Below, in pieces: positions 1-14,655 of a DNA stretch of 64,000 bases (positions are counted from its first letter, which is position 1; every line of letters begins with the position of its first letter). Position numbers and translations under genes: made by a program. This DNA is from Mycobacterium barrassiae (GTDB lineage Bacteria; Actinomycetota; Actinomycetes; Mycobacteriales; Mycobacteriaceae): the NCBI RefSeq assembly GCF_025822765.1, contig NZ_JACKUK010000042.1:1-64000 (forward strand), written 5' to 3'. Below the pieces are notes generated by a model, which was not told the DNA's origin, did not search any database, and worked only from the letters and a program-made list of their open reading frames with translations.

Positions 1-188
1 TTCACACCTGATGCCGACAAAACGCATGCACGCCAACCCGAAGGCGGCAGCGAGCCTATGAGCCAGACACCAGATGATCAGGATCCAACCACCGCAAGAA
101 GCGGTGCCCTCACCCTGACACTGAGCCCGAGCTTAGGAAAAACGGCGGCCGGATTGGGCCGAATCGAAAGCCTTACAGTGAGGCACTG

Positions 189-1106
189 CTACGCCGCGAT
201 CAGGAACTCGTCGATGAGGTTCGCCACCTTCTCCGGTTCTTCCGTCGGTGGGTGATGGTGGACGCCGGGCAGCACGTGCAGGCGGCTGTTCGGCAGGGTG
301 GCGTGCGCGGCGTGGGCATGCTCGACGGGGATGACCCGGTCTTGGTCGCCGCTGATGATCAGTGCGGGCAGATCGTCACTGCAGCACAGCCGGTTGATGG
401 CCGACACCGCCTGCCCGTGGTAGTCGACGACGGAGCGCAGCGTGCGCAGGAACGCCCTTCTGTGGTCGCGGTTGGACAGCGCCGGTTTGGTGGCGAAGCG
501 CTCGGCCGACCCGGCCAGCGCCCGCAGCAGATTGCCCGCGGCGACGGCCGGCCTCGAGGCGACCACCGGCAGTACGAACTCGGAGCCGGGTAACGACAGC
601 AGTCGCAGCGCCCGGCCGACGTCGGCGCCGAAGCCGCCGCTGCTGATCAGGACCAGCCGATCGCAGTACTGGCGATGCTGATGGGCGAACTGCATGGCGA
701 TGCCACCGCCGAGTGAGTGGCCGACCACCGTGACCTTCTTGATTCCGAGCTCATCCAGCAGGTCACGCAGCACCACGGCGAACGCACCGACCGAATAGTC
801 ACCTCGCGGCTTGTCGGATTGCCCGTGGCCCAGCAGATCTAAGGCGATCACGCGGTACCTCTTGGCCAGCAACGGAATCACACCACTCCAGGTCTTCGAA
901 CTGCCGCCCATACCGTGGATCAGCAGCACGACCTCGCCGCGGCCCTCGTCGCGGTAGGCGATGCGGTCGCCGTGCAGCGTGATCGTCTTGACGTCCTCGG
1001 TGTCGTCCGTGGTGATGCCGCTCGCCGGCGCCGCCGTCAAGACAGGCGCGGCCACGACGGCTGCAGCCGTCGCTGCGCTGACCAACAGGGCCTTCAGGGC
1101 TTTCAT
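189..1106 (-). CDS. Secreted alpha/beta hydrolase
   Basis: A 305-residue alpha/beta-hydrolase-fold protein, probably an exported esterase or lipase-like enzyme. Residues 1-29 form a signal peptide: Lys at 2 and 5, an alanine/valine-rich core, and cleavage near APA-SG. The oxyanion-loop motif HGMGG lies at 64-68, the nucleophile elbow GHSLGG at 129-134 (Ser131), an acid residue in SGDQD around 254-256, and the His283-285 cluster near the C-terminus completes a plausible triad. The start ATG at 1106 has an upstream GGAG. It lies downstream of the mmpL gene in the same orientation but has its own 130-bp upstream region carrying the 59-bp element also found before the acyltransferase operon, so it probably works with that operon on envelope lipids. 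Substrate unknown. Confidence 0.85.
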   Translation of the reverse strand: MKALKALLVSAATAAAVVAAPVLTAAPASGITTDDTEDVKTITLHGDRIAYRDEGRGEVVLLIHGMGGSSKTWSGVIPLLAKRYRVIALDLLGHGQSDKPRGDYSVGAFAVVLRDLLDELGIKKVTVVGHSLGGGIAMQFAHQHRQYCDRLVLISSGGFGADVGRALRLLSLPGSEFVLPVVASRPAVAAGNLLRALAGSAERFATKPALSNRDHRRAFLRTLRSVVDYHGQAVSAINRLCCSDDLPALIISGDQDRVIPVEHAHAAHATLPNSRLHVLPGVHHHPPTEEPEKVANLIDEFLIAA

Positions 1107-1182
1107 CTCATCGCTCCGGTGTGTGGTTCAGATGATCTTCTTGATCACTACAACCAGGCTATGTCGAAGGGGGCCAGCACTT

Positions 1183-1241
1183 CTCGCTTGTGCTCACTAG
1201 TCACGCAAGCGACGATTTGCGAGTTTTGCGCATTCTGTTCA
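1183..1241. promoter_or_regulatory. 59-bp shared promoter element, copy A
   Basis: Aligns without gaps to 7014-7072 with 45 of 59 identical positions, including runs ctcgcttgtgc, cactagtc and ttttgcgcattctg. It contains a perfect 7-bp inverted repeat, TCGCTTG at 1184-1190 and CAAGCGA at 1206-1212, separated by 15 bp. Its near edge is 76 bp from the hydrolase start at 1106, and its far edge overlaps the mmpL stop codon. I infer an operator or activator site; the cognate protein is not shown by sequence. Confidence 0.7.
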
Positions 1242-4085
1242 GCGCGTTGCCCTCGACGGCCACCAGTTCGCAGTACCGACGAGCGAGGCCAGGGCCGGCA
1301 CGGTGATGGTTCGGACCACAAAGGTGTCGATCAGGAGCCCCATCCCGATGATGAATCCCGTCTGCACCATCGTGGACAGGGTTCCGAACAGCAGGCCGAA
1401 CATCGAGCCGGCGAAGATGATCCCGGCCGAGGTGATCACGCCGCCGGTCGAGCGGATGGCCCGGATGATGCCCGAGCGAATGCCGTTGTGGGATTCCTCG
1501 CGAATACGGCTGATCAGCAACAGGTTGTAGTCGGCGCCGACGGCGACGAGAACGATGAACGCCATCGCGGGGACGTTCCAGTAGATCTGCTGTTGCAGGA
1601 TGAACTGGAACAGTACGACACCCAAGCCCAACGCCGACAGGTATGAGATCACCACCGAGGCAATGAGATACAGCGGTGCGACAACGGCCCGCAGCAACGC
1701 GACTAGGATGAGGAAGACCACGGACAGGGTGATGATGACGATGAGTCGGAGATCGTGGTCGTAGTCGCTGCGGATGGTGCTGTACATCGGCGTCGTTCCG
1801 ACCATCGAGATCGTCGCATCAGATAGCGCGGTGTTCGGCTGTGTCGCCCTGGCCGTGTCGAGGATCGGCGCAACCTGATCCATCGCCTCGGTGCTGAACG
1901 GATCGAACTTCGACTCGACGAGATAGCGCGCGGAATGACCGTCAGGCGAGATGTACAACTTCGCGGCATTCTTGAAGTCGTTGGTTGTCAGCACTCCCGG
2001 CGGTATGTACATGCCCGCCATCGACGGTGTGGACGCACCCTGCTCGATCGAGTTGAGCAGGCTAGCAGCCTGATTCATCCCGACGCCCATCTTCTTGGTC
2101 TGGTCGACCAGCGTCTGCACACCGGTGGCGAGTTGCCTGCTACCCTCGGCCAGCTGGTTCGCTCCCTGCTCCATCTGTGCGATCTTCTGTTGTGCGGCAG
2201 CGGGATTACCGACACCGGCCGACTGTAGATCGGCGCCCGCCGACTGCAGCAGACCGGCGAGCTGCTCGATCTTGGCCAGCACATCCTGCGCGGGTCCCGC
2301 GGCGGCGAGCTGCTGCAGTTTGGCCCGACCGTCGGCGCACGCGGGGTCGGCGTCGCACTGCGGGCTGTTGTTAAGCACGTTGAGCATCGCGGTGGCGTTG
2401 TCGGTCAGGCCGTCGTTCGCATATGACCGGATGCTGTCGATGAGTTGGGTGGTCTGCGGGCTGGAGAGCTGCTGTTGGACCTGCTTCAGCGTGTCCGTCA
2501 TCGCGGTCACCGACGTTGCGGTGGAGCGAATCTGGTCACGAATGTTACCGAGGGTGTCGGCAAGTTTGTTGGCGCCGGCGCTCAACGCATCGAGATCGGT
2601 TGTCCTGCTGCTGATCTGTGAGGAGGCATCCGCGAGCTTCGTCCCGACCTGCCCGGCCTGGTAGCTGATCTTGGTCTGGTCGAGTGGCTGCCCCGCCGGA
2701 CGGGTGATGCCGCGCACCGCTGCGATGTTCGGCAGCTGGGCCACCCGCTGCGCCAGTTGTTCCATATCGGCGAGTGATTGAGGGTTGCGGAGATCGTGCG
2801 GCGACTGGATGTAGATGTATTCCGGAAGCAGCGCGCTGGTGGAGAAGTGTGCGGCCATCTCGGAGAAACCTTGATTGCTCTCCGCCGATGCGGGCAACTG
2901 CATACGGTCGTTGAAGGTCGGGTGCATCATCAGCGCGCAGGCGCCCAGCCCGATCAGAACGCCCAGGCTCACGAAGAGATGCGACTTGGGCCGACGGACC
3001 AGATTGATCGCCGAGCGTTGCCAGAGCCGACTCGTCAGCGGCGCCCTTGGCGCGATCCATTTGCGCCGACCGGCCAGCACGAGGACGGCTGGCAGCAAGG
3101 TGATCGCCGCGAAGAACGCGATTGAGATCGAAATCGCGAGCGCCGGACCGACACTGGTGAATGCGGGCAGGCGGGTGAAGATCATGCCGAGGAACGTGAT
3201 GGCCACCGTAGCCGCGGAACCCGCGATCACCTTGCCGATGGACGTCATCGCCTTTGCCACCGCCACGTCGGAGTCGACGCCGGCCCGCAGGTATTCGTGG
3301 TATCGGCTGATGAGGAAGACCGCGTAATCGGTGCCCGCGCCGACGATCATGGCCGTCATCAGCACCACGGTCATCGCCGTGACATGCAGCCCGACGTGGG
3401 TCAGTGCGGACACCACTCCCTGTGCGGCCGCCACGGAGATGCCGATGGTGAGCAGTGGCAGCAGCGCCGTGACCGGTCGTCGGTAGATCACCATCAGGAT
3501 GACCATGACCAGGATCGCCGTCGCGATGCCGATCAGTTGCATGTCGCGGGCGCTGACGATCGACATGTCGCCGATCACCGCGGCTTCCCCCGTCACGTGG
3601 GTCTCCAGATCGGATCCCGCCGTGGCTTGGGTGATGATCTGGCCGACCCGCTTGTAGGCCTCCGACGATTCCGGTGATCCGGCAGGCGCCTTGAGCGTCA
3701 CCGCCATGTAGAAGGCCTTGTTGTCCTTGCTGACCATGAGCTGACGCAACGCCGGAGTGCTGACGAAGTCCTCGACCGCCCCGACGTCCCCGCTGTCGGC
3801 GCGCAACTTGTCGGCCAGCGTGCGGTAGGTGTCGTTGTCGGAGGGCTGCAGCCCGCGGTCGTTGGCCATGACGACCACCACGATGTTCTGCTCCGACTCG
3901 CCGAAGTCGGCCGCCATGTGCTCGGTGGCCGACATCGCCTGCGGCGGCAGCACCTGCAGAGTCTGGTTCGCCACGATCTTCGTCAGAGGTGCGAACGCGA
4001 TCGACAGCACCACGACAAGCGCCACCCACGCGGCGATCACGAGCCAGGGGACCCGCACCACGATGCGGCCCAACGTGTTCAGCAC
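1239..4085 (-). CDS. MmpL/RND family lipid transporter
   Basis: A 948-residue MMPL-family protein of the RND superfamily. It would export a lipid or glycolipid across the inner membrane using proton motive force. One transmembrane helix near residues 10-30 is followed by a periplasmic domain, a helix bundle containing GTDYAVF (Asp253-Tyr254), a long second periplasmic domain rich in Gln/Ala/Ser predicted helices, and a second bundle containing GADYN (Asp852-Tyr853). The paired Asp-Tyr motifs are those of the MmpL proton relay. The GTG at 4085 is chosen because AGAAGG lies 8 bases upstream and it avoids overlap with the preceding acyltransferase gene (stop at 4100). Placement behind two acyltransferases resembles the papA/mmpL pairs of sulfolipid and polyacyltrehalose loci, but no polyketide synthase is present here. 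Cargo unknown. Confidence 0.9.
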   Translation of the reverse strand: MLNTLGRIVVRVPWLVIAAWVALVVVLSIAFAPLTKIVANQTLQVLPPQAMSATEHMAADFGESEQNIVVVVMANDRGLQPSDNDTYRTLADKLRADSGDVGAVEDFVSTPALRQLMVSKDNKAFYMAVTLKAPAGSPESSEAYKRVGQIITQATAGSDLETHVTGEAAVIGDMSIVSARDMQLIGIATAILVMVILMVIYRRPVTALLPLLTIGISVAAAQGVVSALTHVGLHVTAMTVVLMTAMIVGAGTDYAVFLISRYHEYLRAGVDSDVAVAKAMTSIGKVIAGSAATVAITFLGMIFTRLPAFTSVGPALAISISIAFFAAITLLPAVLVLAGRRKWIAPRAPLTSRLWQRSAINLVRRPKSHLFVSLGVLIGLGACALMMHPTFNDRMQLPASAESNQGFSEMAAHFSTSALLPEYIYIQSPHDLRNPQSLADMEQLAQRVAQLPNIAAVRGITRPAGQPLDQTKISYQAGQVGTKLADASSQISSRTTDLDALSAGANKLADTLGNIRDQIRSTATSVTAMTDTLKQVQQQLSSPQTTQLIDSIRSYANDGLTDNATAMLNVLNNSPQCDADPACADGRAKLQQLAAAGPAQDVLAKIEQLAGLLQSAGADLQSAGVGNPAAAQQKIAQMEQGANQLAEGSRQLATGVQTLVDQTKKMGVGMNQAASLLNSIEQGASTPSMAGMYIPPGVLTTNDFKNAAKLYISPDGHSARYLVESKFDPFSTEAMDQVAPILDTARATQPNTALSDATISMVGTTPMYSTIRSDYDHDLRLIVIITLSVVFLILVALLRAVVAPLYLIASVVISYLSALGLGVVLFQFILQQQIYWNVPAMAFIVLVAVGADYNLLLISRIREESHNGIRSGIIRAIRSTGGVITSAGIIFAGSMFGLLFGTLSTMVQTGFIIGMGLLIDTFVVRTITVPALASLVGTANWWPSRATR

Positions 4086-4099
4086 CCGATCACCTTCTG

Positions 4100-5467
4100 C
4101 TATGCGGCGATCGCTATGCGGCGATCGTCGTCCAGCTGAGAATCCCACTGCACGGTCGCGGTGAGCGAGAATTCAGCGAGAGTGCTGAAAATTGCCTCGC
4201 GCAGCTGCTCATTGGTGCGTGGCCGAGCCGGGTCGTAGGCCAGGACGGAGACGAAGACCTGCCCGTTGACGCGGCCGGAGAGCATCCCCATCAAGCCGCC
4301 GGCGCGGTGCATCATCCCCCGGGTCACGCGGGGATACAACGAGCGCATCGAGAAGGAGTCGGCGTCGGTACCGTCCGGACGATTGGCGGCTGCGCGGACG
4401 TCACCCAGATTGGACGAGCAGACCGCCGTCGTGCTGCCCGCGGCGACGCTGACCATCCGCTTGATGAGCCGTTTCGGCAGGAAGGGAACGACCGGCAGTA
4501 GCGCGAAGCGTTCGTCGGGAATCTCGTTCGCCCGGATCAGCGCTGCCTTGACGGCGGCGCGGACCTCGCGAAGATCGGTCGTCACCTTCGTCGGATCGAT
4601 CGTCAGGTCGGCGTTGTCCACCGCATTGGCGCGGGTGTCGCCGTCGAAGCGTCGGTTGATGGGCATCGCCAAGGTGGCCAGCCCGCTTCCGGCCGTCATC
4701 CGGCCGGCGCGTGCCGCGAATCGCGCGGCCAACCCGGCGAGCAGTGAGTTGGGTGTCCCGCCGAGTGCCTTGGCGACGGCGTCCCACTGGTCCATGTCGA
4801 CGTACACGGTGGCGGCGGGCAGGTCGATCTGTTCGTCCGGGGCGACGATGGGTGCCGACATGGGCGCGGAGGCGACGGCCTCCCGCCGGGCACGCCGGGC
4901 CATCCGCGCGCCGGCGACGATCGCCCGTCCGACCGACGGCATGTCGCGCGCGGTCTGCCGGGCATCCTGGCGCAACGCACGCCACCGACGTCGCGATCCT
5001 GCGGCCGGCCAGACGATGGAATCGTCACGACCAGAGGCGGCGTCGGCGATCGCGGTGCTGAGCCCGACCCCGTCGGCCAGGCCGTGGGAGATGATCAGGC
5101 TCAGTCCGGTACCGCCGTCGGTGAACGGCAGCACTGCGAGATGCCAAGCGGGGCCGTGCTCGTAGTCCAGTTCAATGGCGGTCTGCTCGCGCAGCCAGTC
5201 ACCGAACTCCGCGCGGGGCCGCGCCACCGCGATCTCGATGGCGGGTCCGTCATCCGGCGCCACCCACCGATGACGCCCGAACGGCAACGGTGACCGCTCG
5301 ACGTGACGGGACAACCGGCCCCGCAGCAGATGGTGGTGAAAGCGCCGCAGCCCGTCCATGTCGATGGCGCCGTTGTACGTCCAGACGCACTGCAGCAGAT
5401 TGGTCGCCCCCGTCGCGCGTTCACCCTGGAACACGACCTGGTCGGCCAGATCGAGCATCGTGTTCAT
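4100..5467 (-). CDS. Condensation-fold acyltransferase (Pap/WES-like)
   Basis: A 455-residue protein of the chloramphenicol-acetyltransferase/condensation superfamily, expected to esterify a lipid or sugar with an acyl group. The catalytic motif HHxxxDG appears as SHGLADG at residues 127-133: the second, catalytic His128 and the structural Asp132-Gly133 are kept while the first His is Ser. A C-terminal SNLGD segment matches the usual DFGW-like region of these folds only loosely. The ATG at 5467 is favoured over ATG 5485 because AAAGGAAG lies 6-9 bases upstream. It sits 14 bp before mmpL and 23 bp after a second acyltransferase, so all three are probably one transcript. Acceptor and donor unknown; a DGAT-like role is possible. 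Confidence 0.75.
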   Translation of the reverse strand: MNTMLDLADQVVFQGERATGATNLLQCVWTYNGAIDMDGLRRFHHHLLRGRLSRHVERSPLPFGRHRWVAPDDGPAIEIAVARPRAEFGDWLREQTAIELDYEHGPAWHLAVLPFTDGGTGLSLIISHGLADGVGLSTAIADAASGRDDSIVWPAAGSRRRWRALRQDARQTARDMPSVGRAIVAGARMARRARREAVASAPMSAPIVAPDEQIDLPAATVYVDMDQWDAVAKALGGTPNSLLAGLAARFAARAGRMTAGSGLATLAMPINRRFDGDTRANAVDNADLTIDPTKVTTDLREVRAAVKAALIRANEIPDERFALLPVVPFLPKRLIKRMVSVAAGSTTAVCSSNLGDVRAAANRPDGTDADSFSMRSLYPRVTRGMMHRAGGLMGMLSGRVNGQVFVSVLAYDPARPRTNEQLREAIFSTLAEFSLTATVQWDSQLDDDRRIAIAA

Positions 5468-5490
5468 CTCAACTCTTCCTTTCATGTCGA

Positions 5491-6936
5491 TCACAGGCTC
5501 TGCTGGTGCACGGCGGTGGAATTGGCATGGCGGGCAACCTCTTCGATCCAGTCCTCGGTGGTGGTCTTCGCGACATCGGTGAAGGCTTCGCTCAATGCGG
5601 CGATGTAGCGGTGCACCGAATCCCGCGCGACGGAGTTGTCGGGGAAGGAGACCGTGACAGTGGTACGGCCGGCGTGCCGGTTGATCCACATGTTGATCCC
5701 GCCGTGCGAGAGGGTGTCGCCGTAGGTGCCGAAGTTGGTCTCTTCCCACATCGACGCCAGCGGGATCTTGCGGAAGTCCAGGTAGGAAACCATCATCGTC
5801 GGCTTGTTCGGCAGCTTGATGCCGAGCTGGTCGACGGGCGCCACCTCCAGCACCCGATCCAGGGGCACGTTCGCCAGATTCCTGTTGGAGTCGAACGATT
5901 TCTGCGCCGCGCGGGCCGCCTCGCCGAAGCAGCCGTCACCGATCGGCACCGTGACGGGGAACAGGCCGGCGAACCACCCGACCGACAACGTCTCACCCGG
6001 CATCCGGGTGTCGGACGGAGTGAAACCGTGGTACGTGGTGTTGCCGGTCAGCTGGTGCTCCGCCAGCGCCGCGCAGGCCATCACGCCGCCGGAGAAGCGG
6101 GCGCCGACATTACGGCACGCGGCGTCGAACGCCTCCGTCTCTTCACCGTTGAGCAGTTCCACGGTGATGAAGTCACCCTTGTTGTGCGACCAGGTGTTGC
6201 CCAGCTCCAACGGGAAACTCGGCCAGTCGCCGTCGGTGTCCTGGGCGAAGGTGATCCAGTCCCGGATCTCGGGGGAGGACAGATCCATCGCGGCGACTTG
6301 CTCGCTCTGCCGAGCGGTATAGCCGCGGTACCCGTCGACCTCTGTCTGGGTGACCGGCCGCCCCGCGATCAGATCCTGATACGCCAGATGGATGTCGAGG
6401 AAGATGATCCCCGCGGACATTCCGTCGATGTGCAGATGATCGGCGCTGGCATAGAACGTGAAATGGTCGGGCTTGGCGATGACGCCGAACGTGATGCAGT
6501 CCCAATTCAACGTATCCGGCGTGGACGTCAATGCGTGTTCGCGAATGTCGTCTGCGCCCATTTCGCCGTAGGAAAAAGGCACGAATTCGATCTGTTCCGG
6601 ATCGGCGACCGTCCGGCGGAAGATGTTGCCGTTCTCGAACCCGAACGAGCTGTGATAGGTGTCGTGGCGGCGGACGTGCATGTTGATCGCGGTGGTCATC
6701 GCGACGATGTCGCACGTGCCGGGGATATCCCAGGACACCACCATCAGTCGAGGTAGTTGGCGTCCCAGGGCCCGGCTGTAGAAAGCTGCGCGCAGATGCG
6801 ACGCCTGCTGGAAGCTCGGGGGCAGCGGATCACGATCGGCCTTCGCCATGATTTCGCGCGACGCGTCCGATGCGGTCCAGGTGGTAACTGGGCCCTCTGC
6901 CGGCTGCCATGAATTGATGGGGCCCAGTGCGACCAT
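5491..6936 (-). CDS. PapA-type acyltransferase
   Basis: A 481-residue polyketide-associated (Pap) type acyltransferase, the size of PapA1/PapA2/PapA3. In those systems the enzymes acylate trehalose or a related acceptor before MmpL export. The motif at residues 166-172 reads DHLHIDG, retaining catalytic His167 and Asp171-Gly172 of HHxxxDG. The N-terminus (PINSWQPAEGPVTTW) is typical of the PapA1/2/3 group. The ATG at 6936 has AAAGGAG 8-9 bases upstream; the longer ATG at 6984 lacks one. It is the first gene of the three-gene minus-strand operon, and the 59-bp element begins 77 bp upstream. Substrates cannot be read from the sequence. Confidence 0.8.
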   Translation of the reverse strand: MVALGPINSWQPAEGPVTTWTASDASREIMAKADRDPLPPSFQQASHLRAAFYSRALGRQLPRLMVVSWDIPGTCDIVAMTTAINMHVRRHDTYHSSFGFENGNIFRRTVADPEQIEFVPFSYGEMGADDIREHALTSTPDTLNWDCITFGVIAKPDHFTFYASADHLHIDGMSAGIIFLDIHLAYQDLIAGRPVTQTEVDGYRGYTARQSEQVAAMDLSSPEIRDWITFAQDTDGDWPSFPLELGNTWSHNKGDFITVELLNGEETEAFDAACRNVGARFSGGVMACAALAEHQLTGNTTYHGFTPSDTRMPGETLSVGWFAGLFPVTVPIGDGCFGEAARAAQKSFDSNRNLANVPLDRVLEVAPVDQLGIKLPNKPTMMVSYLDFRKIPLASMWEETNFGTYGDTLSHGGINMWINRHAGRTTVTVSFPDNSVARDSVHRYIAALSEAFTDVAKTTTEDWIEEVARHANSTAVHQQSL

Positions 6937-7013
6937 TTCGGTAACTCCTTTTGTCCTCGATGACTTTTCGTCATCCCGATGCATTCGAAGCTACGGAGCC
7001 ACTAACCCGATGG

Positions 7014-7072
7014 CTCGCTTGTGCGCACTAGTCGCGAAGTGAGCGATTTATCGCTTTTGCGCATTCTGCTCA
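7014..7072. promoter_or_regulatory. 59-bp shared promoter element, copy B (divergent)
   Basis: Second copy of the element at 1183-1241, in the same orientation, lying in the 158-bp space between the acyltransferase operon (start 6936) and the histidine kinase (start 7095). Its near edge is 77 bp from the acyltransferase ATG, matching the 76 bp of copy A, and its other edge is 22 bp from the kinase ATG. It contains ctcgctt/aagtgag (6 of 7 paired) and a tight inverted repeat AGCGAT-tt-ATCGCT at 7042-7055. TCGCTT recurs as a half-site. Inferred to control both divergent transcripts. Confidence 0.7.
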
Positions 7073-7094
7073 CGCGCGGGTCTACGCTCTGCGC

Positions 7095-8783
7095 ATGCCG
7101 TTCATGCCCCGCTTTGACCTGCGGCTGGCCACCCAGGTGCTGCTGCTGCAAGTCGCCGTTGTGGTGCTCACGCTCGGTATCGCGGGCGGCCTACTGGCAT
7201 TCCTCAGCCATGAGCGGATTCACTACCAAGTCGGTCAGCGAGCGCTCGACGTCGCGCGCGTACTCGCGTACGCACCCGCCGTGCGCGCGGACGTCGCGCA
7301 CTACGACGACACCGGAGTACCGCAGGGGGAGGCCGCCGCCGACGAACTGGCCAATGGGCAGCTGCAGTTGATCGCGTCGGAGGTGCAGAAGCGGACCGAC
7401 GTGTTGTTCGTGGTCATCACCAACAACCACGGCATCAGACTCGCGCACCCGAACAGGGACGAGCTCGGAAAGCCGGTGAGCACGGATCCGGACGAGGCAC
7501 TCGCGGGACACGAGACGGTGGTCGCGCAGTCCGGCACACTGGGTCCGTCAGTACGCGCCAAAGTGCCTGTCCTGCGGCCGAATTCGGAACAGGTGGTGGG
7601 CGAGGTCAGCGTGGGCATCTCGACCGCGGCGGTGCACAAGCAGCTGTGGACAGATGTCCGGACCGCGGCTCTGCTTGTCGGAGTGGCGCTGCTGATCGGT
7701 GTCGTCGGCTCGCTGCTGCTGGCCCGACGTTGGCGCGCACTGACATTGGGGCTGCAGCCCGCCGAGCTCGCTGAGATGGTCCGCGGTCAGGCGGCGATTC
7801 TGCACGGAATCGGCGAGGGCGTCCTAGCCGCCGACACTTCGTGGAAGACGACGTTCGTCAACGATGAAGCGTGCCGACTGCTCGAGATCGACGACCAGCA
7901 TGGCCGCCCGATTCAGGAGACCGGTTTGACGCCACGGGTTCTCGACGTGTTCTTTTCGGCGGATCCGACTCCGACCATCGCCACCGTCGGCGACCGCATC
8001 GTCGTGGTGTCCGCCAGGAAAGTGTCGCGCGACGGACACGACCTCGGCACGGTGCTCATCGTGCGGGATCGCACCGATGTCGAGTCACTGACCCGCCAAC
8101 TCGATGCCGTCCAGTTGATGAGCACCGCGCTGCGCGCGCAGCGTCACGAGTTCGCCAATCGGCTCCATCTGCTCAACGGGTTGTTGCAGAGCGGCCATGT
8201 CGACGAGGCCGAGGAGTTCTTGGGGGAGCTACTCGGTTCGGGGCCGCTCGGCTCGGCGCTGCCCGGCATGGACGCCATCCGCGACCCGTTCCTGCAGGCT
8301 TTCTTGGCGGCGAAGGCCGCCACCGCCCGCGAGGCCGGGGTGACGTTGCGGATCGGCGAGAACACCTGGGTGTCGGGCCGCCTTGCGCTGCCCGTCGATG
8401 TGACCACGGTGCTCGGCAATCTGATCGACAACGCGATCGACGCCGCACGCACGGGCACCGCCGACACGAAGATGGTGGAAGTTGAGCTGCTGCAGGATGG
8501 TTCGACACTGCACATCACCGTTGCCGACAGCGGCGACGGCGTCGCGCCAGACTTCGTCGACCATGTGTTCACCGAAGGCAAGTCAACGAAACCCCAGTCG
8601 GGAATTCCCGGCGGCCGCGGGATCGGCATGGCGCTGTCCCGTCAGATCAGCCGTGCCCTCGGGGGAGACGTGCGACTGTCGAGCACGGGCAACCCCGATG
8701 CGGAGTTGCGTGGTGCGGAGTTCATCGCCCGGTTGCCGGGTGTGATGGTCGAGGAGGAAGCCCAATGGGTGACGCAGAACTGA
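7095..8783 (+). CDS. CitA/DcuS-type sensor histidine kinase
   Basis: A 562-residue membrane histidine kinase. Transmembrane helix 1 (about 12-35), an extracytoplasmic Cache-like sensor (about 40-190), helix 2 (about 195-215, AALLVGVALLIGVVG), a PAS-like region (about 235-330), then a SpoOB-type dimerisation box QRHEFANRLHLLNGLL with His351, N box LIDNAIDAAR, G1 DSGDGV and G2 GGRGIGMALSRQI. The HEFxNxLHxLxGLL form is characteristic of the citrate/C4-dicarboxylate family, so the ligand may be a small carboxylate. It overlaps the response regulator gene by 19 bp and is transcribed away from the acyltransferase/mmpL operon. No dicarboxylate transporter adjoins it, which is unusual for the family. 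Confidence 0.88.
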   Translation: MPFMPRFDLRLATQVLLLQVAVVVLTLGIAGGLLAFLSHERIHYQVGQRALDVARVLAYAPAVRADVAHYDDTGVPQGEAAADELANGQLQLIASEVQKRTDVLFVVITNNHGIRLAHPNRDELGKPVSTDPDEALAGHETVVAQSGTLGPSVRAKVPVLRPNSEQVVGEVSVGISTAAVHKQLWTDVRTAALLVGVALLIGVVGSLLLARRWRALTLGLQPAELAEMVRGQAAILHGIGEGVLAADTSWKTTFVNDEACRLLEIDDQHGRPIQETGLTPRVLDVFFSADPTPTIATVGDRIVVVSARKVSRDGHDLGTVLIVRDRTDVESLTRQLDAVQLMSTALRAQRHEFANRLHLLNGLLQSGHVDEAEEFLGELLGSGPLGSALPGMDAIRDPFLQAFLAAKAATAREAGVTLRIGENTWVSGRLALPVDVTTVLGNLIDNAIDAARTGTADTKMVEVELLQDGSTLHITVADSGDGVAPDFVDHVFTEGKSTKPQSGIPGGRGIGMALSRQISRALGGDVRLSSTGNPDAELRGAEFIARLPGVMVEEEAQWVTQN

Positions 8784-9463
8784 CGGTGTTGGTGGTCGAC
8801 GACGACTTCCGTGTCGCCAACATGCACGCCGGCATCGTCGAGGCGCTGCCAGGTTTCACCGTGTCGGCCACGGTGAACAGTCTCGCGGCCGCACGGGAGG
8901 CCGCCCCCGTGGACCTCGCACTGGTCGACGTCTACCTACCCGACGGGTCGGGGGTGGACTTCGTCCGTGAACTACATTGCGACAGCTTCATTCTGAGCGC
9001 AGCGACCGAGGCGGACACCATCCGGGCTGCGGTCGCCGCCGGTGCGCTGAGCTATCTGGTGAAGCCGTTCGTCCCCGCTGATCTGGCCGCCAGGCTGGCC
9101 GGCTATGCGCGCTACCGCAAGATTCTGTCCGGCCCGAACCTGAGTGCGCAGGACGTCGACGCCGCACTCGATGCGCTTCGACCGAGAGTCGCCGAACAGA
9201 AGACCTCGGTCACCGCCACATCACCCACCAAACAGCTTGTCCTGCAGGCGTTGCGCGCCGCAAACGGACCGATGTCGTCGGCGGAGGTTGCCACGGCGAT
9301 CGGGGTGTCACGGGCGACGGCGCAACGGTACCTGGCGACGCTGGCCGCCGCCGGTGAGGTCAAGACTCGGCTGCGTTACGGCAGCACCGGGCGTCCGGAA
9401 CAGGAATTCATTGCCGCCGAACGGCCTACTCGATCAGGGCAGCCGCGGCCTGCAGGTGCTTGA
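8765..9463 (+). CDS. CitB/DcuR-type response regulator
   Basis: A 232-residue response regulator. Receiver domain about 6-120 with acidic pocket VVDDD (11-14), phospho-acceptor Asp55 in ALVDVYLPDG, and Lys in YLVKPF. The C-terminal part (about 150-215) reads as a winged/helix-turn-helix module: SSAEVATAIGVSRATAQRYLATLAAAGEV. This architecture matches CitB/DcuR partners of CitA/DcuS kinases. It is translationally coupled to the kinase. Its 3' end overlaps the convergent ipdC gene by 38 bp, so the steroid cluster begins with no spacer. The likely target is the shared 59-bp element, an inference from proximity. Confidence 0.88.
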   Translation: MGDAELTVLVVDDDFRVANMHAGIVEALPGFTVSATVNSLAAAREAAPVDLALVDVYLPDGSGVDFVRELHCDSFILSAATEADTIRAAVAAGALSYLVKPFVPADLAARLAGYARYRKILSGPNLSAQDVDAALDALRPRVAEQKTSVTATSPTKQLVLQALRAANGPMSSAEVATAIGVSRATAQRYLATLAAAGEVKTRLRYGSTGRPEQEFIAAERPTRSGQPRPAGA

Positions 9464-10493
9464 CCGCATCGTTGACGATGGTGTCGATCAACTCCGCGCA
9501 CGACGGCAGATCCTGGAGGATGCCTGCGACCTGGCCCGACGCCAGCACGCCCGCGTCCGTGTTGCCCTCGACCAGACCCGCCTTCAGCAGCATGGGGGTG
9601 TTGGCCGCCATGACGACCTGAGACCAGGTCAGTTCCTTACCGTGCCGCATCTCCATGCCGTCGCGGATCATCGAGCGCCACGTCATACCGGACATCTTCT
9701 TGAACTTCTGGGCGTTGCGCACCGCGGCCGTGAATCCGCGTAGCCGCGAACCGCTCTCGAGCTTCTCGACCAGCCCGGTACGCAGCACTCGATGCGGCAT
9801 GCCATCGACACGTGTGGATACCACGGTGCCGTCCAGCCCGGCCTCGAGGTACCGCCGCTTTACCGCATCGGGCACGGTGGAATCCGAGGTCAGCAGGAAG
9901 CGGGTGCCCATCGCGACACCCGCCGCGCCGTAGGACAGTGCCGCCGCGAGTCCGCGGCCGTCGAAGAATCCGCCCGCCGCCACGACGGGGATGTCTTCCC
10001 CCTTCAAAGCATCCAGGACCGACGGCAGCAGCAGCGTCGTGGCGATCGGACCGGTGTGGCCACCGCCCTCGCCACCCTGGACGATCACCGCGTCGGCACC
10101 CCACCCGGCGACCTTCTTGGCGTGCTTGGCCAGCCCGACCGACGGAATCACCACCACGCCCGCGTCTTTGAGCTTCGCGATCAGGTCGGGTTTGGGCGCC
10201 AGCGCGAACGACGCCACCCTGACTCCCTCGCGGATCAGCAGGTCGATGCGCTCGTTGGCGTCGCCGGCGTCGGCGCGGATGTTGATGCCGAATGGCTTGT
10301 CCGTGGCGGCCTTCACCTTCGTGACGGCCGTCTGCAGTTCCTCGAGTGTCATCGTGGCCGACGCGAGGATCCCGAGACCGCCGGCGTTCGAGGTTGCCGC
10401 CACCAGGCGCGCACCCGCCACCCAGCCCATCCCGGTCTGTACCACCGGGTGTTCGATGCCGACCAGTTCGGTCAGCGGTGTGCGGAGACTCAT
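9426..10493 (-). CDS. ipdC: IpdC, nitronate-monooxygenase-fold flavoenzyme
   Basis: A 355-residue FMN-dependent TIM-barrel protein of the nitronate monooxygenase/2-nitropropane dioxygenase family, matching Rv3553 (IpdC). In steroid catabolism IpdC acts on the CoA ester of the bicyclic C/D-ring intermediate derived from HIP, before EchA20 opens ring D. Family features: N-terminal HPVVQTGMGWVAGARLV, the flavin-contacting segment QGGEGGGHTG (about residues 138-147), and AAGGFFDGRGLAAAL followed by GTRFLLTSDS. The start overlaps the ipdB stop by 4 bp, and the four genes ipdC, ipdB, ipdA and echA20 are all coupled this way. Expected regulation is KstR2 through the box at 12914. Confidence 0.88.
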   Translation of the reverse strand: MSLRTPLTELVGIEHPVVQTGMGWVAGARLVAATSNAGGLGILASATMTLEELQTAVTKVKAATDKPFGINIRADAGDANERIDLLIREGVRVASFALAPKPDLIAKLKDAGVVVIPSVGLAKHAKKVAGWGADAVIVQGGEGGGHTGPIATTLLLPSVLDALKGEDIPVVAAGGFFDGRGLAAALSYGAAGVAMGTRFLLTSDSTVPDAVKRRYLEAGLDGTVVSTRVDGMPHRVLRTGLVEKLESGSRLRGFTAAVRNAQKFKKMSGMTWRSMIRDGMEMRHGKELTWSQVVMAANTPMLLKAGLVEGNTDAGVLASGQVAGILQDLPSCAELIDTIVNDAVKHLQAAAALIE

Positions 10494-11239
10494 TGCCGAA
10501 TTTCCTTATCCCGCAGACCCTTAGGATCGATCACCTCGCGAATCAGCTTCTGCTCTTCCTCGGTGGGCAGCCGCGTCGTCTCGGCGGAGTCGAGGCCGTG
10601 CACTTCGAACGACGTGTTCTCCGCGACCTGGTCGGCCTCGACGCCCGGATGCAGCGACACCGCGCGCATCTGATGGTCGGGGCCGTTGAAGTCGAACACG
10701 CCGAGGTTGGACACCACCCGGAAGACGTTGACGAAACGGAAGGCCGGGTTTTTCGGATCGACCTTGTCCCATCCGATTCCGGAGACCACGTCCACCGAAT
10801 CTCCGAACACCCGCTTGGAGTGATTGCCGACCCAGTAGCTCGTCGCGTGGTTGATGGTGTTGCCGGGCGCGCCGCGCACGCCGAACATCTGCCGGGTGGG
10901 ATGCTGCAGAGGCCCGAATGCCGAAAGGTTCTGATTGCCGTACCGGTCAATCTGATTCGCGCCCATGACCACGTGGCGGCGGCCCCACGCCAGTGTCTCG
11001 AAGACGCGGCCGAACGGCATCCACCCCTCGATCGCTCCGGCCGCTCCGAGGGCGGGTGTGTCGGCCAGCAGCCGGGCTTCACCGTCGGTCAACAGGATGT
11101 CGGGGGAGAAGGTCAGACGGGCCAGCCTGGCGCCGATCGACACCATGTTCGCCATTGGGTTGACCATGATCTCGCCGGCATCGCGGAACAGTTCGGCGCA
11201 GGCGACGGCGCACACCTCGGCACGGGTCACTGACATCAC
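10490..11239 (-). CDS. ipdB: IpdB, beta subunit of COCHEA-CoA hydrolase
   Basis: A 249-residue class I CoA-transferase-fold beta subunit, the Rv3552 counterpart. With IpdA it forms the heteromeric enzyme that hydrolytically opens ring C of COCHEA-CoA, although the fold suggests a CoA transferase. The sequence begins SVTRAEVCAVACAELF and carries PNTINHATSYWVGNH and the family's GIGWD segment. It overlaps ipdA and ipdC by 4 bp at each end, so subunit stoichiometry is probably kept by translational coupling. The role is taken from established work on the Ipd enzymes; the assignment rests on order and protein similarity. Confidence 0.88.
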   Translation of the reverse strand: MMSVTRAEVCAVACAELFRDAGEIMVNPMANMVSIGARLARLTFSPDILLTDGEARLLADTPALGAAGAIEGWMPFGRVFETLAWGRRHVVMGANQIDRYGNQNLSAFGPLQHPTRQMFGVRGAPGNTINHATSYWVGNHSKRVFGDSVDVVSGIGWDKVDPKNPAFRFVNVFRVVSNLGVFDFNGPDHQMRAVSLHPGVEADQVAENTSFEVHGLDSAETTRLPTEEEQKLIREVIDPKGLRDKEIRQ

Positions 11240-12126
11240 TTCGCCGCCTCCTTCGCCGCTTCTGTGAATTTCCGCACCGCCGCTTGATAGTCCGCTTCGC
11301 TGCCGGACAGGTATGTCTTCACGAATTCGGCCCAGGTCTCCTCGGACGCCGCGGCCTCGGCGTAGTGCCGCTGGAACTTCTCGTCGCGGCGGTAATCCGG
11401 TTCGGCCGTGGTGAAGTGTGCGCCGTTGGGTGCCTCCACCACCTTGTCGACCATCATCCGGTTCACCAGCAGCGCCTGCGGCGGCACGGCTTTCACCAAT
11501 TCGTCTGTGGGCACCACCCGTTCGACGGACAGGTAGCGTCGTTGCGCCGCCATCAGGAACAGGTCGTCGAAGTACGGATCGATGCCGGTGTAGGCCGCAT
11601 TGCCCGCAGCATCACCGAGATTCATGTGGACGAACGCCGCATCGAGCGTCAGCGCAGGCATGGCAATCAGTTCCTCGTAGCCGTCGCCGGTGGGGTAGGG
11701 CGACGTCACGGTCTTGAGTTCGTCGCCCCAGAACGTGCGCACATCGCTGCCCAGCCCCGCGCGGATCGGCAGGAACGGCAGGCGTTGCGCCGCGGCTTGC
11801 AGCCCACAGCGCAGCATGCCCTCGTCCATCTCACGGGCCTCGATGGAGCCGCTGGTGCGGGCCTTGGCGAACCACGGGTCGTAGAACGGCGGCGAATCGA
11901 GCGATACGAAACCGTAGTAGACGCGTTTGACCTTGCCCGCCGAGCACAGCAGTCCGAGGTCGGGACCGCCGTAGGTGACGACGGTCAGATCCTTGACATC
12001 GGTGCGCAGCAGGGCCCGCACGAACGCCATCGGTTTGCGCCGCGATCCCCAGCCGCCGATGCCGATGGTCATGCCGCTCTCGATGCCGGCGACGGCGTCG
12101 GCCAAAGTTGTTCTCTTGTCGGTCAT
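11236..12126 (-). CDS. ipdA: IpdA, alpha subunit of COCHEA-CoA hydrolase
   Basis: A 296-residue CoA-transferase-fold alpha subunit, the Rv3551 counterpart, partner of IpdB in ring C hydrolysis. The glycine-rich GGWGSRRKPMAF segment at residues 23-34 is the CoA-binding loop of this superfamily. The internal stretch GLGSDVRTFWGDE and the conserved HMNLGDAAGNAAYTG follow. Its ATG overlaps the echA20 stop, and its stop overlaps the ipdB start by 4 bp. Length matches the known subunit. Regulation is expected through the KstR2 box in front of echA20. Confidence 0.88.
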   Translation of the reverse strand: MTDKRTTLADAVAGIESGMTIGIGGWGSRRKPMAFVRALLRTDVKDLTVVTYGGPDLGLLCSAGKVKRVYYGFVSLDSPPFYDPWFAKARTSGSIEAREMDEGMLRCGLQAAAQRLPFLPIRAGLGSDVRTFWGDELKTVTSPYPTGDGYEELIAMPALTLDAAFVHMNLGDAAGNAAYTGIDPYFDDLFLMAAQRRYLSVERVVPTDELVKAVPPQALLVNRMMVDKVVEAPNGAHFTTAEPDYRRDEKFQRHYAEAAASEETWAEFVKTYLSGSEADYQAAVRKFTEAAKEAAK

Positions 12127-12878
12127 TTCCCGCCCTTGTTCGTCCCCGCGAACGCGTCCCGATGCTCGTCGGCCACGCCTGCGAGGTTGAGCTCGAACGT
12201 GAAACCCTGCTCCATGCGGTAGCTCGAGTTCACCCGTTGCACGTCGATGAAGTTCAGCGCCTCCTTGGCCGCCCGAATGACCCGGGTGTCCTTTGCGGCG
12301 ATATCGCGCGCCACCCGGAGTGCAGCCTCGTCGAGTTCGGCCCGCGGCACGACCTCGTGCACCGAGCCGAAGTGGTGCAGGGTGGCCGCGTCGACGGTGG
12401 CGGCGGTGAAGAACAGTCGCCGCATCATGTGCTGGGGCACCAACCTCGACAGGTGCGTTGCGGCACCAAGAGCGCCACGCTCGACCTCGGGCAGGCCGAA
12501 CGTCGCATCGTCGGAGGCGACGATGACGTCGGAGTTACCGACCAGGCCGATCCCTCCGCCGACGCAGAACCCGTTGACCGCGGCGATGACGGGCACCTCG
12601 CACTCGTAGACGGCGCGGAACGCATGGAAGCAGCCGCGGTTCGCGTCGATGAGCGCGGTGAAGCCCTCGGTGTTCTGCATCTCTTTGATGTCAACGCCTG
12701 CGTTGAACCCGCGGCCCTCCGCGCGCAGGATCACCACGTGGGTGTCCATGTCCCTGCCGGCGGCGGTGATGGCATCGCCGAGCTCGAACCAGCCGCGCGA
12801 CGGAATCGCGTTGACCTTCGGATAGTCGACGGTGACCGAGACGATGCCCGGTTCGACCGTCTTGGTGGTGATCGTCAT
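12123..12878 (-). CDS. echA20: EchA20, ring D opening enoyl-CoA hydratase-fold enzyme
   Basis: A 251-residue crotonase-family protein matching Rv3550 (EchA20), which hydrolytically cleaves ring D of the bicyclic CoA intermediate in HIP degradation. Crotonase marks: VTVDYPKVNAIPSRGW, the oxyanion-hole loop GRGFNAGVDIKEMQN (about residues 60-74) and the second loop NGFCVGGGIGLVGNSD. The ATG at 12878 has GAGG 8 bases upstream and gives the expected length; upstream in-frame codons run into the KstR2 box. First gene of the echA20-ipdA-ipdB-ipdC transcript, divergent from an SDR gene. Confidence 0.9.
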   Translation of the reverse strand: MTITTKTVEPGIVSVTVDYPKVNAIPSRGWFELGDAITAAGRDMDTHVVILRAEGRGFNAGVDIKEMQNTEGFTALIDANRGCFHAFRAVYECEVPVIAAVNGFCVGGGIGLVGNSDVIVASDDATFGLPEVERGALGAATHLSRLVPQHMMRRLFFTAATVDAATLHHFGSVHEVVPRAELDEAALRVARDIAAKDTRVIRAAKEALNFIDVQRVNSSYRMEQGFTFELNLAGVADEHRDAFAGTNKGGK

Positions 12879-12913
12879 GCGGATACCTCGGTTACTCTGG
12901 GGGTCGCTACCTA

Positions 12914-12927
12914 AGCAAGCACTTGCT
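12914..12927. promoter_or_regulatory. KstR2 operator
   Basis: AGCAAGCACTTGCT is a perfect match to the published KstR2 consensus AnCAAGnnCTTGnT, and the palindrome extends one base on each side. It sits in the 64-bp gap between echA20 (minus, start 12878) and the SDR gene (plus, start 12943), where a single box can repress both. KstR2 is the TetR-family repressor of the ring C/D genes and responds to HIP-CoA. Confidence 0.93.
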
Positions 12928-12930
12928 TGG

Positions 12931-12943
12931 TACGCTAGCACAG
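12931..12943 (+). promoter_or_regulatory. Predicted -10 and leaderless start of SDR gene
   Basis: TACGCT at 12931-12936 fits the mycobacterial TANNNT -10 element, and the GTG start codon at 12943 lies exactly 7 bases after its last T, where transcription normally begins. No ribosome binding site lies between. The mRNA is therefore predicted to be leaderless, with the KstR2 box ending 3 bp upstream of the -10. Confidence 0.6.
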
Positions 12944-13716
12944 TGACTGACCGCCCAGAGATAGTCCTCGGACTGCACGGCAGGGTCGTCCTGGTGACCG
13001 GTGGAGTGCGGGGCGTCGGGGCCGGCATCAGCTCCGTATTCGCAGCGCAGGGCGCAACCGTGGTGACGTGTGCGCGACGACCGGTCGAGGGCCTGCCCTA
13101 CGAGTTCCACAGCTGCGACGTACGCGACGACGACGCGGTGGCCGCGCTAATCGAGACGGTCGCCGACAAGCACGGACGCCTGGACGTCGTCGTCAACAAC
13201 GCGGGCGGATCGCCCTACGTCCTGGCCGCCGAGTCGTCGGCGAAGTTCAACACCAAGATCGTCGAGCTCAACCTGCTTGGACCGCTGTCGGTCTCGATCC
13301 ACGCGAACGCGGTGATGCAGGCGCAGCCCCACGGCGGCTCGATCATCAACATCGCCAGTGTGAGCGGCCGTCGGCCGACGCCGGGCACGGCGCCGTACGG
13401 TGCGGCCAAGGCGGGCATGGAGAGCATCACGAGCACGCTGGCCGTCGAGTGGGCACCGAAGGTGCGGGTGAACTCGGTGGTCGTCGGGATGGTGGAGACC
13501 GAACAGTCCGAATTGTTCTACGGCGACGCCGATTCCATCGCAGCCATCTCCAAGAACGTTCCGCTGGGGCGGCTGGCCAAACCGGACGACGTCGGCTGGG
13601 CGGCGGCGTTCCTGGCGTCCGACGCCGCGTCTTACATCAGCGGCGCCTCGCTCGAGGTGCACGGCGGCGGCGAACCGCCGCACTACCTGGCGACCACGAC
13701 CGCCGACATCAAGTAG
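12943..13716 (+). CDS. SDR oxidoreductase (Rv3549c-like)
   Basis: A 257-residue classical short-chain dehydrogenase/reductase. Nucleotide-binding motif TGGVRGVG at about residues 20-27, NNAGG near 86, catalytic Ser in NIASVSGR, and the YGAAK pair near 152-156. Position and length match Rv3549c of the KstR2 regulon, whose substrate is not firmly established but is expected to be a ring C/D intermediate. The GTG at 12943 is chosen because it follows the -10 at leaderless spacing and removes the upstream extension that would cross the KstR2 box. A second SDR gene follows after 33 bp. Confidence 0.85.
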   Translation: MTDRPEIVLGLHGRVVLVTGGVRGVGAGISSVFAAQGATVVTCARRPVEGLPYEFHSCDVRDDDAVAALIETVADKHGRLDVVVNNAGGSPYVLAAESSAKFNTKIVELNLLGPLSVSIHANAVMQAQPHGGSIINIASVSGRRPTPGTAPYGAAKAGMESITSTLAVEWAPKVRVNSVVVGMVETEQSELFYGDADSIAAISKNVPLGRLAKPDDVGWAAAFLASDAASYISGASLEVHGGGEPPHYLATTTADIK

Positions 13717-13749
13717 CGCATACACCGAACAACGTAGGAGATAAGAGAT

Positions 13750-14655
13750 ATGGGACTGCTCGACGGCCGTGTTGTCATCGTGACGGGTGCAGGCGGGGGC
13801 ATCGGCCGCGCACATGCGCTGGCGTTCGCCGCCGAGGGCGCGCGGGTGGTGGTCAATGACATCGGCGTCGGGCTGGACGGCTCACCCGCGGGAGGCGGCA
13901 GCGCGGCCCAGGCAGTGGTCGACGAGATCACCGCTGCCGGAGGCGAAGCCGTCACCAGCGGCGCCAACGTCGCGGACTGGGCGCAGGCCGAGGGGCTGAT
14001 CCAGACCGCGGTCGACGAGTTCGGCGGCCTCGATGTGCTGGTCAACAACGCAGGCATCGTCCGCGACCGGATGTTCGCGAACACCAGCGAGGAGGAGTTC
14101 GACGCCGTTGTTGCCGTCCACCTCAAGGGCCACTTCGCGACCATGCGCCACGCGGCCTCGTACTGGCGCGCACAGTCCAAGGCCGGCAACACCGTCGACG
14201 CGCGCATCATCAACACCAGTTCGGGCGCGGGTCTGCAAGGCAGTGTGGGACAGGCCAATTACAGTGCGGCCAAAGCGGGAATCGCGGCCTTGACCCTGGT
14301 TGCCGCGGCCGAGATGGGCCGCTACGGGGTCACCGTCAACGCCATCGCGCCGTCGGCCAGAACGCGGATGACCGAGACGGTGTTCGCGGAGATGATGGCC
14401 ACCCAGGACAAGGACTTCGACGCGATGGCGCCGGAAAACATCTCCCCGCTGGTGGTTTGGCTCGGCAGCGTCGAATCCAAGGATGTCACCGGAACGATGT
14501 TCGAGGTCGAGGGCGGCATCATCCGGGTGGCCGAGGGTTGGGCGCACGGACCCCAGGTCGACAAGGGCGCCCGCTGGGATCCAGCCGAACTCGGACGCGT
14601 CGTGAGAGATCTGCTGGCCAAGGCACGTCCGGCGGTGCCCGTCTACGGCGCCTGA
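13750..14655 (+). CDS. SDR oxidoreductase (Rv3548c-like)
   Basis: A 301-residue SDR related to FabG and to the dehydrogenase part of multifunctional beta-oxidation enzymes. TGAGGGIGRAHA forms the cofactor loop near residues 13-24, NNAGI lies near 98, a Ser in NTSSGAG and the YSAAK dyad near 174-178. Position corresponds to Rv3548c. The ATG at 13750 is preceded by AGGAGATAAGAGAT, a usable ribosome binding site. It probably shares the KstR2-controlled transcript with the preceding SDR. It converges on the ddn-like gene, with 3 bp between stops. Likely beta-oxidation of a steroid-derived CoA ester; the exact step is unknown. Confidence 0.83.
   Translation: MGLLDGRVVIVTGAGGGIGRAHALAFAAEGARVVVNDIGVGLDGSPAGGGSAAQAVVDEITAAGGEAVTSGANVADWAQAEGLIQTAVDEFGGLDVLVNNAGIVRDRMFANTSEEEFDAVVAVHLKGHFATMRHAASYWRAQSKAGNTVDARIINTSSGAGLQGSVGQANYSAAKAGIAALTLVAAAEMGRYGVTVNAIAPSARTRMTETVFAEMMATQDKDFDAMAPENISPLVVWLGSVESKDVTGTMFEVEGGIIRVAEGWAHGPQVDKGARWDPAELGRVVRDLLAKARPAVPVYGA

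Follow-up and report, generated by a model that had tools for sequence, protein, structure and literature searches.

In Corynebacterium glutamicum, the genes of the two-component system CitAB are found upstream of, and opposite in direction to, citH, and the response regulator CitB binds and activates the citH and tctCBA promoters; the section of a 2012 review that deals with this system gives the exact motif as unidentified (PMC3353115). For three other regulators of this bacterium, MtrA, PhoR and CopR, operators built from 8-9-bp tandem direct repeats are given in a table of that review (PMC3353115). In the present work, a 64,000-nucleotide stretch of the Mycobacterium barrassiae genome (contig NZ_JACKUK010000042.1, positions 1 to 64,000; hereafter the window) was found to hold two copies of a 61-bp element, copy A at 1181-1241 in front of an alpha/beta hydrolase gene and copy B at 7012-7072 between a papA gene and a two-component system of the citrate type. 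Both stretches most likely serve the regulator of the system adjacent to copy B as binding sites and promoters. This regulator appears, in some mycobacteria, to have exchanged a role in nutrient uptake for the control of genes for surface lipids and secreted proteins.

Like CitAB, the window system pairs a CitA/DcuS-type sensor kinase (7095..8783, plus strand; sCache_3_2 2e-21, SPOB_a 4.9e-9, HATPase_c) with a CitB/DcuR-type response regulator carrying a winged helix-turn-helix (8765..9463, plus strand; Response_reg 3.6e-13, HTH_IclR 2.1e-9), the proposed binder of the element, and carboxylate transporters adjoin the system in related genera. Unlike in C. glutamicum, the divergent gene in the window is papA rather than a citrate transporter gene, no citrate or carboxylate transporter lies beside the two-component system within the window, and the predicted mycobacterial regulon consists mostly of hydrolases, transporters, acyltransferases, MmpL and PE proteins. 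The best NCBIfam matches were to the enterobacterial systems DcuS/DcuR and DpiB/DpiA (CitA/CitB), and by sequence comparison the sensor domain of the kinase matches the solved sensor domains of DcuS and CitA. Because these matches fall below the curated cut-offs (kinase, DcuS/MalK family 306 bits against 520 and MalK 221 against 800; regulator, DcuR 102 against 262 and DpiA 80 against 264), the window system is a relative of the enterobacterial systems and not one of them. In placing PapA acyltransferases beside an MmpL transporter and a hydrolase, the locus resembles the papA/mmpL loci of Mycobacterium tuberculosis, which serve sulfolipid and polyacyltrehalose; unlike those loci, it has no open reading frame of polyketide-synthase size among those listed for 1-14000 (the longest is 969 amino acids). 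The element shares tandem 9-bp direct repeats with the MtrA, PhoR and CopR operators, and differs from the sites of these OmpR-type proteins in its association with a CitB-type regulator and in a third repeat that begins 36-38 bp after the second. It is ordinary in kind, unusually long and well conserved, and its mycobacterial targets are unexpected.

Positions 1183-1241 and 7014-7072 are identical at 45 of 59 bases, ungapped and in the same orientation, as the initial annotation had reported, and 500 letter-shuffles of both intergenic stretches reached a best 59-bp match of 32 at most (mean 26.0). The start codons at 1106 (hydrolase) and 6936 (PapA) place these stretches 76 and 77 bp away, so that the spacing noted in the same annotation is correct as well. 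As the hydrolase and papA belong to separate Pfam families, the pair did not arise by duplication of a gene together with its promoter. Across the family, the conserved unit is 61 bp long, and the promoter extends past this unit to a -10-like hexamer. Copy A (minus strand, 56.8 bits, genome E-value 1.1e-14) reads toward the hydrolase gene and contains the tandem 9-bp direct repeats TGAACAGAA and TGCGCAAAA (box 1, 1224..1241, minus strand) and the repeat TGAGCACAA adjoining the -35 region (box 3, 1188..1196, minus strand), with the -10-like hexamer TAGCCT at the family position (1156..1161, minus strand, offset 26). Copy B (minus strand, 63.8 bits, E-value 7.0e-17) reads toward papA and contains the tandem direct repeats TGAGCAGAA and TGCGCAAAA (box 1, 7055..7072, minus strand), the repeat TGCGCACAA (box 3, 7019..7027, minus strand), and, where the family profile places it, a weak -35-like hexamer GAGCCA (7011..7016, minus strand) 17 bp from the -10-like hexamer TAGCTT, again at the family position (6988..6993, minus strand, offset 25). 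The far side of copy B faces the two-component system, 22 bp from the divergently read kinase gene. With copy B directly upstream of this gene, the system is probably autoregulated, and the sequence TACGCT (7083..7088, plus strand) is a possible -10 of what would be a leaderless transcript of the two-component system.

A 96-bp query covering copy B found a match in 54 of 98 genomes of the same genus at E<=1, many of them short and probably due to chance. Iterated profile searches of the loci yielded 72 hits, some of them duplicate sites, that defined the 61-bp element in a nearly gap-free alignment, and a sequence-only covariance model built from 55 distinct sites was run on the 98 genomes. 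The element was detected in 35/98 genomes at E<=0.01, a weak-match tally that is perhaps too low given that more than 40 genomes were scored with stricter filters, and in 31/98 at E<=1e-5, for a total of 102 strong copies and a maximum of 11 per genome. Four strong copies are present in the genome of the window, two of them outside it: one (C27:378384-378445) precedes another alpha/beta-hydrolase-like gene, and the other (C7:179-239) is an apparent relic. By look, this relic (L031, 179-239) and a further orphan copy (L032, 9137-9198) each sit beside the end of an acetoacetyl-CoA synthetase-like gene; the L032 copy also adjoins an HNH/13E12-like gene and, unlike the relic, has kept its -10 hexamer. 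Conservation upstream of orthologous genes, on which the proposal of a shared operator had been made to depend, was found in four other genomes with a hydrolase at 74-94% and a PapA at 60-95% identity, all of which carry the element before both genes; the next hydrolase homologue (69%, in the 84% complete genome G005) is accompanied by neither element nor regulator. No description of the motif was found in the literature in searches limited to openly licensed PubMed Central papers, and there a query with GCGCACAA and "mycobacteri" gave no on-topic title among the matches listed.

The conserved core of the element consists of three 9-bp direct repeats of TGMGCAMAA, two in tandem (box 1) and one apart (box 3), and in the direction of the gene the consensus reads TGAGCACAATGCGCAAAA, a variable middle, and T/C-GCGCACAAGCG. 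Self-similarity of the site matrix was highest for direct repeats, with TGAGCACAA, TGCGCAAAA and TGCGCACAA at positions 1, 10 and 46 or 47, and the three main spacings, in steps of 1 bp, account for 39, 46 and 11 of 97 sites. An inverted-repeat operator was considered and rejected: the inverted TCGCTT pairs that the initial annotation took for the recognition unit do occur in the window, but TCGCTTG stands between the boxes at just 7/97 sites. A TAnnnT -10 box, which lay outside the search model, begins 25 or 26 nt past the last repeat at 91 of 97 sites and at none of them at 27-61 nt (of the 102 sites, four were dropped for lack of the anchor pattern and one was a duplicate). A weak -35-like hexamer is found 17 (or 18) bp ahead of the -10 with box 3 adjoining the -35 region, and a preferred CA occurs 7-8 nt past the -10, at the expected position of the transcription start. 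At 89/102 sites, a gene start in the same direction lies 28-194 nt beyond the element, distances outside the window being approximate because gene starts there came from a simple gene caller. This layout would be that of an activator-dependent sigma-A promoter, and the site family, the fixed -10 and the gene polarity uphold, at the level of sequence, the earlier proposal of a shared operator and promoter rather than a chance resemblance.

We therefore hold with good confidence that both 61-bp copies act as operator-promoters at which the CitB-type regulator, once phosphorylated, would activate the hydrolase and the papA-mmpL genes. The CitA-type kinase would sense an extracellular carboxylate, citrate or similar, and phosphorylate the regulator, whose molecules would bind the repeats and recruit RNA polymerase. 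From copy A, this would turn on the hydrolase; from copy B, it would turn on papA and mmpL together with the second acyltransferase-like gene, with a surface lipid as the presumed product. As for the signal, all four basic residues of Klebsiella CitA (R66, H69, R107 and K109) are kept in the window sensor when it is matched to structure 2v9a, and where DcuS has R-x-F, both CitA and the window sensor have R-x-K. These four residues are reported for citrate binding in Klebsiella CitA in the part of the 2012 review concerned with it (PMC3353115), and citrate or a related carboxylate is a first guess for the ligand.

It is also conceivable, if unlikely, that the regulator binds the element as a repressor, or that it mainly controls the promoter of its own two-component system, the targets being switched on when it leaves. 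At 7/102 sites, the element is 22-45 bp from a divergently read kinase start and could act on that promoter, and box 3 abuts the -35 region. Against this, weak -35 hexamers such as these are expected of activator-dependent promoters, box 1 is located some 75-94 nt upstream of the likely transcription start, a position that, going by these offsets, is commoner for activators, and CitB of C. glutamicum is a positive regulator of citH and tctCBA in the review passage on CitAB (PMC3353115). Two further arrangements concern autoregulation. At loci L119, L121 and L124, a single element is followed by papA and the kinase gene, arranged head to tail with about 22 bp between them, which suggests a papA-two-component operon with autoregulation. 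In G007, G010, G023, G051, G058 and G061, weak partial copies, mostly of the box 1 side, are found about 1.69 kb from the regulator gene and directly upstream of the kinase gene, where they are perhaps an autoregulatory half operator.

The assignment of the element to this regulator draws on their co-inheritance. An orthologue of the 8765-9463 regulator, defined at >=62% identity, is present in 28/98 genomes, and the element (E<=1e-5) was detected in 28/28 genomes with the orthologue and in 3/70 without it (Fisher 1.7e-21), two of these three being just 70-72% complete. Among genomes at least 90% complete and at most 5% contaminated, the figures are 25/25 and 1/65, and among genomes with only a paralogue of about 40% identity the element occurs in 1/32. 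In 22 of the 28 genomes, a strong copy and the regulator gene are no more than 10 kb apart; with weak partial copies included, the number is 25. On an rpoB tree of 90 of the 98 genomes, the regulator is patchily distributed (15 parsimony changes; mean for shuffled labels, 22.8), and regulator and element agree at 89/90 tips, a figure reached in 0/5000 simulations of independent evolution (maximum, 70). Since the regulator is scattered on the tree, a single shared ancestor does not account for its match with the element. The eight genomes left out for want of a usable rpoB fragment were G003, G005, G007, G008, G041, G044, G048 and G070, of which two (G007 and G041) carry regulator and element alike and two others (G003 and G008) carry the element without the regulator. 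The presence of papA does not drive the presence of the element: eight regulator-free genomes with full-length papA homologues (59-63% identical to that of the window) lack the element at E<=1e-5; in G038, one of the eight, a 1.9e-5 match lies on another contig. Conversely, 13 genomes have both the regulator and a papA of at least 58% identity, and in 12 of these a full element is located 69-194 nt upstream of papA, while in the thirteenth (G032) a piece of the element is cut by the contig end.

Co-occurrence and phylogeny thus support as likely the earlier suggestion that the neighbouring two-component system is the regulator. That some other DNA-binding protein travelling with the two-component system recognises the element seems quite improbable; co-occurrence cannot tell apart genes that are always inherited together, but the neighbours shared within the stretches viewed, in Nocardia (seven loci) as in other genera, are the two-component system and a transporter. 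A separate case is L046 (9427-11269), where the element precedes a gene for a small protein that looks secreted. This gene and that of a dicarboxylate symporter (Pfam SDF) are divergent, the element and a 38% paralogue of the regulator are separated by about 2.3 kb, and crosstalk is possible.

Beyond the genus, the regulator and the element were again found together. Among 251 genomes of the family, a full element is present in 17, belonging to four genera, and all 17 have the regulator; 13 of these belong to other genera, and each of the 13 combines a single copy with a regulator at 56-71% identity. At 58 named loci with regulator relatives of at least 63%, a copy of >=30 bits was present in 42 within the stretch examined, including 7/8 named Nocardia loci with the element beside the two-component system, and at seven named loci with relatives at 29-40% no copy was found in the stretch examined. 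At these seven Nocardia loci, the two-component system and an ABC transporter flank the element, and the same holds for four genomes from a genus that could be Nocardia too. In seven genomes of a further genus, it separates the system from a CitMHS-type citrate transporter, and in two genomes of a third non-mycobacterial genus it precedes an MFS-type gene. Twenty loci were chosen from 64 genomes with a regulator relative and without a full element, and a CitMHS-like gene adjoins the system in 19 of them (Pfam CitMHS was confirmed on three sampled genes, two from those 19 and one from a full-element locus). In 19/19, the top-scoring partial match across all 6 kb is upstream of the CitMHS-like gene and in the right polarity; the twentieth locus has a TctC gene and no useful match. 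The transporter promoter may be the older setting of the element. Locus L150, from a record titled as a Bifidobacterium breve metagenome-assembled genome (MAG), has a mycobacterial-type regulator with the element, and is probably a misbinned contig.

A dispersed repeat or recent local duplication with no regulatory role, which up to 11 strong copies per genome and the relic-like C7 copy might bring to mind, can be dismissed almost entirely, because polarity and distance to gene starts are fixed at 89/102 sites and the -10 in 91/97, and the element depends on the regulator and is present in three other genera along with it; the many loci that carry it, which the initial annotation would have read as the mark of such a repeat, are mostly those of a polarised promoter element.

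Several observations weigh against an activating operator-promoter bound by the CitB-type regulator. Activation was preferred to repression from site position alone. At 13 of the 102 sites, no gene was called on the expected side in the first 200 nt (at 10 the next one is further off and at three none was called), and the C7 copy in the genome of the window has no -10 and faces no gene. One genome with a copy and no orthologue (G045, 98% complete) is a real exception, 7/70 orthologue-free genomes show some match at E<=0.01, and the 1e-5 line was picked after the table had been seen. Of the 58 named loci, 16, some on short contigs, have no strong copy in the stretch examined, and 64/81 family genomes with a regulator relative (E<=1e-45) lack a full element. 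The partial matches near citrate transporters among the latter are individually weak (E-values from 1.4e-5 up to 1.3, for 120 kb), and some of them are from closely related genomes. SRATAQRYL, the recognition helix, fails to separate relatives with and without a full element; as an account of specificity it was set aside as uninformative, being common to relatives without one.

The predicted targets of the element were tallied from 87 distinct proteins, encoded at those 89 sites where a gene starts no more than 200 nt away. In Pfam, where families overlap and 25 of 50 are listed, the matches listed include alpha/beta hydrolases (16), MFS transporters (15), PapA-type Condensation proteins (12), MmpL (9), PE (6), PrpF (3), ABC (3) and amino-acid permeases (2). 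An AraC-type regulator had been considered for the genes of 331-344 amino acids behind the element, and was rejected, as a look at the sequences and the Pfam tally fit alpha/beta hydrolases. NCBIfam assigned eight of the 87 to a metabolite/H+ symporter model and three to 4-oxalomesaconate tautomerase, other matches including a tricarballylate symporter model; from these symporter and tautomerase matches, tri- and dicarboxylate functions seem to have stayed with the regulon alongside its envelope genes. The regulon proposed from the window, with hydrolase, acyltransferases and MmpL as its members, stands as a prediction, supported by element positions and target families; copies do precede the hydrolase and PapA genes, and its extent is wider than had been claimed, many other loci also carrying the element. 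PE-type sites have a distinct middle, and at L203 and L144 (M. attenuatum) the element upstream of the PE gene is next to what looks like a transposase-like gene pair.

Within the window, the predicted target of copy A is the alpha/beta hydrolase (189..1106, minus strand; Abhydrolase_1 1.4e-41), whose N-terminus suggests that it is secreted. The first gene behind copy B encodes the PapA-type acyltransferase with its Condensation domain (5491..6936, minus strand), followed by what looks like a second acyltransferase (4100..5467, minus strand; no Pfam match of its own), which is on the same strand and probably shares the papA operon, and by the MmpL transporter (1239..4085, minus strand), probably the last gene of this operon. 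In other genomes, MmpL genes are often preceded by their own copy of the element. The genes that follow the two-component system (9426-13716) appear to resemble the ipdAB/echA20 cholesterol-ring cluster.

Together, these results yield a sharply delimited DNA motif proposed for a CitB-type regulator of the Mycobacteriales, and a predicted regulon in which carboxylate sensing is linked to lipid export through PapA/MmpL and to PE proteins, in scattered mycobacteria (28/98 genomes). Other genera would have a single site, at a transporter promoter, and in Mycobacterium the site would have spread to as many as 11 places with strong matches, most of them in promoters of genes for envelope lipids, PE proteins, hydrolases and transport. 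The chances seem evenly balanced that a citrate-sensing system has in this way been captured by the mycobacterial envelope, its operator having been copied before genes for lipid acyltransferases, MmpL, PE proteins, hydrolases and transporters, such that an external carboxylate would set surface composition and the regulon would come and go with the regulator. The pattern looks like that of a regulator gaining targets through the spread of one operator.

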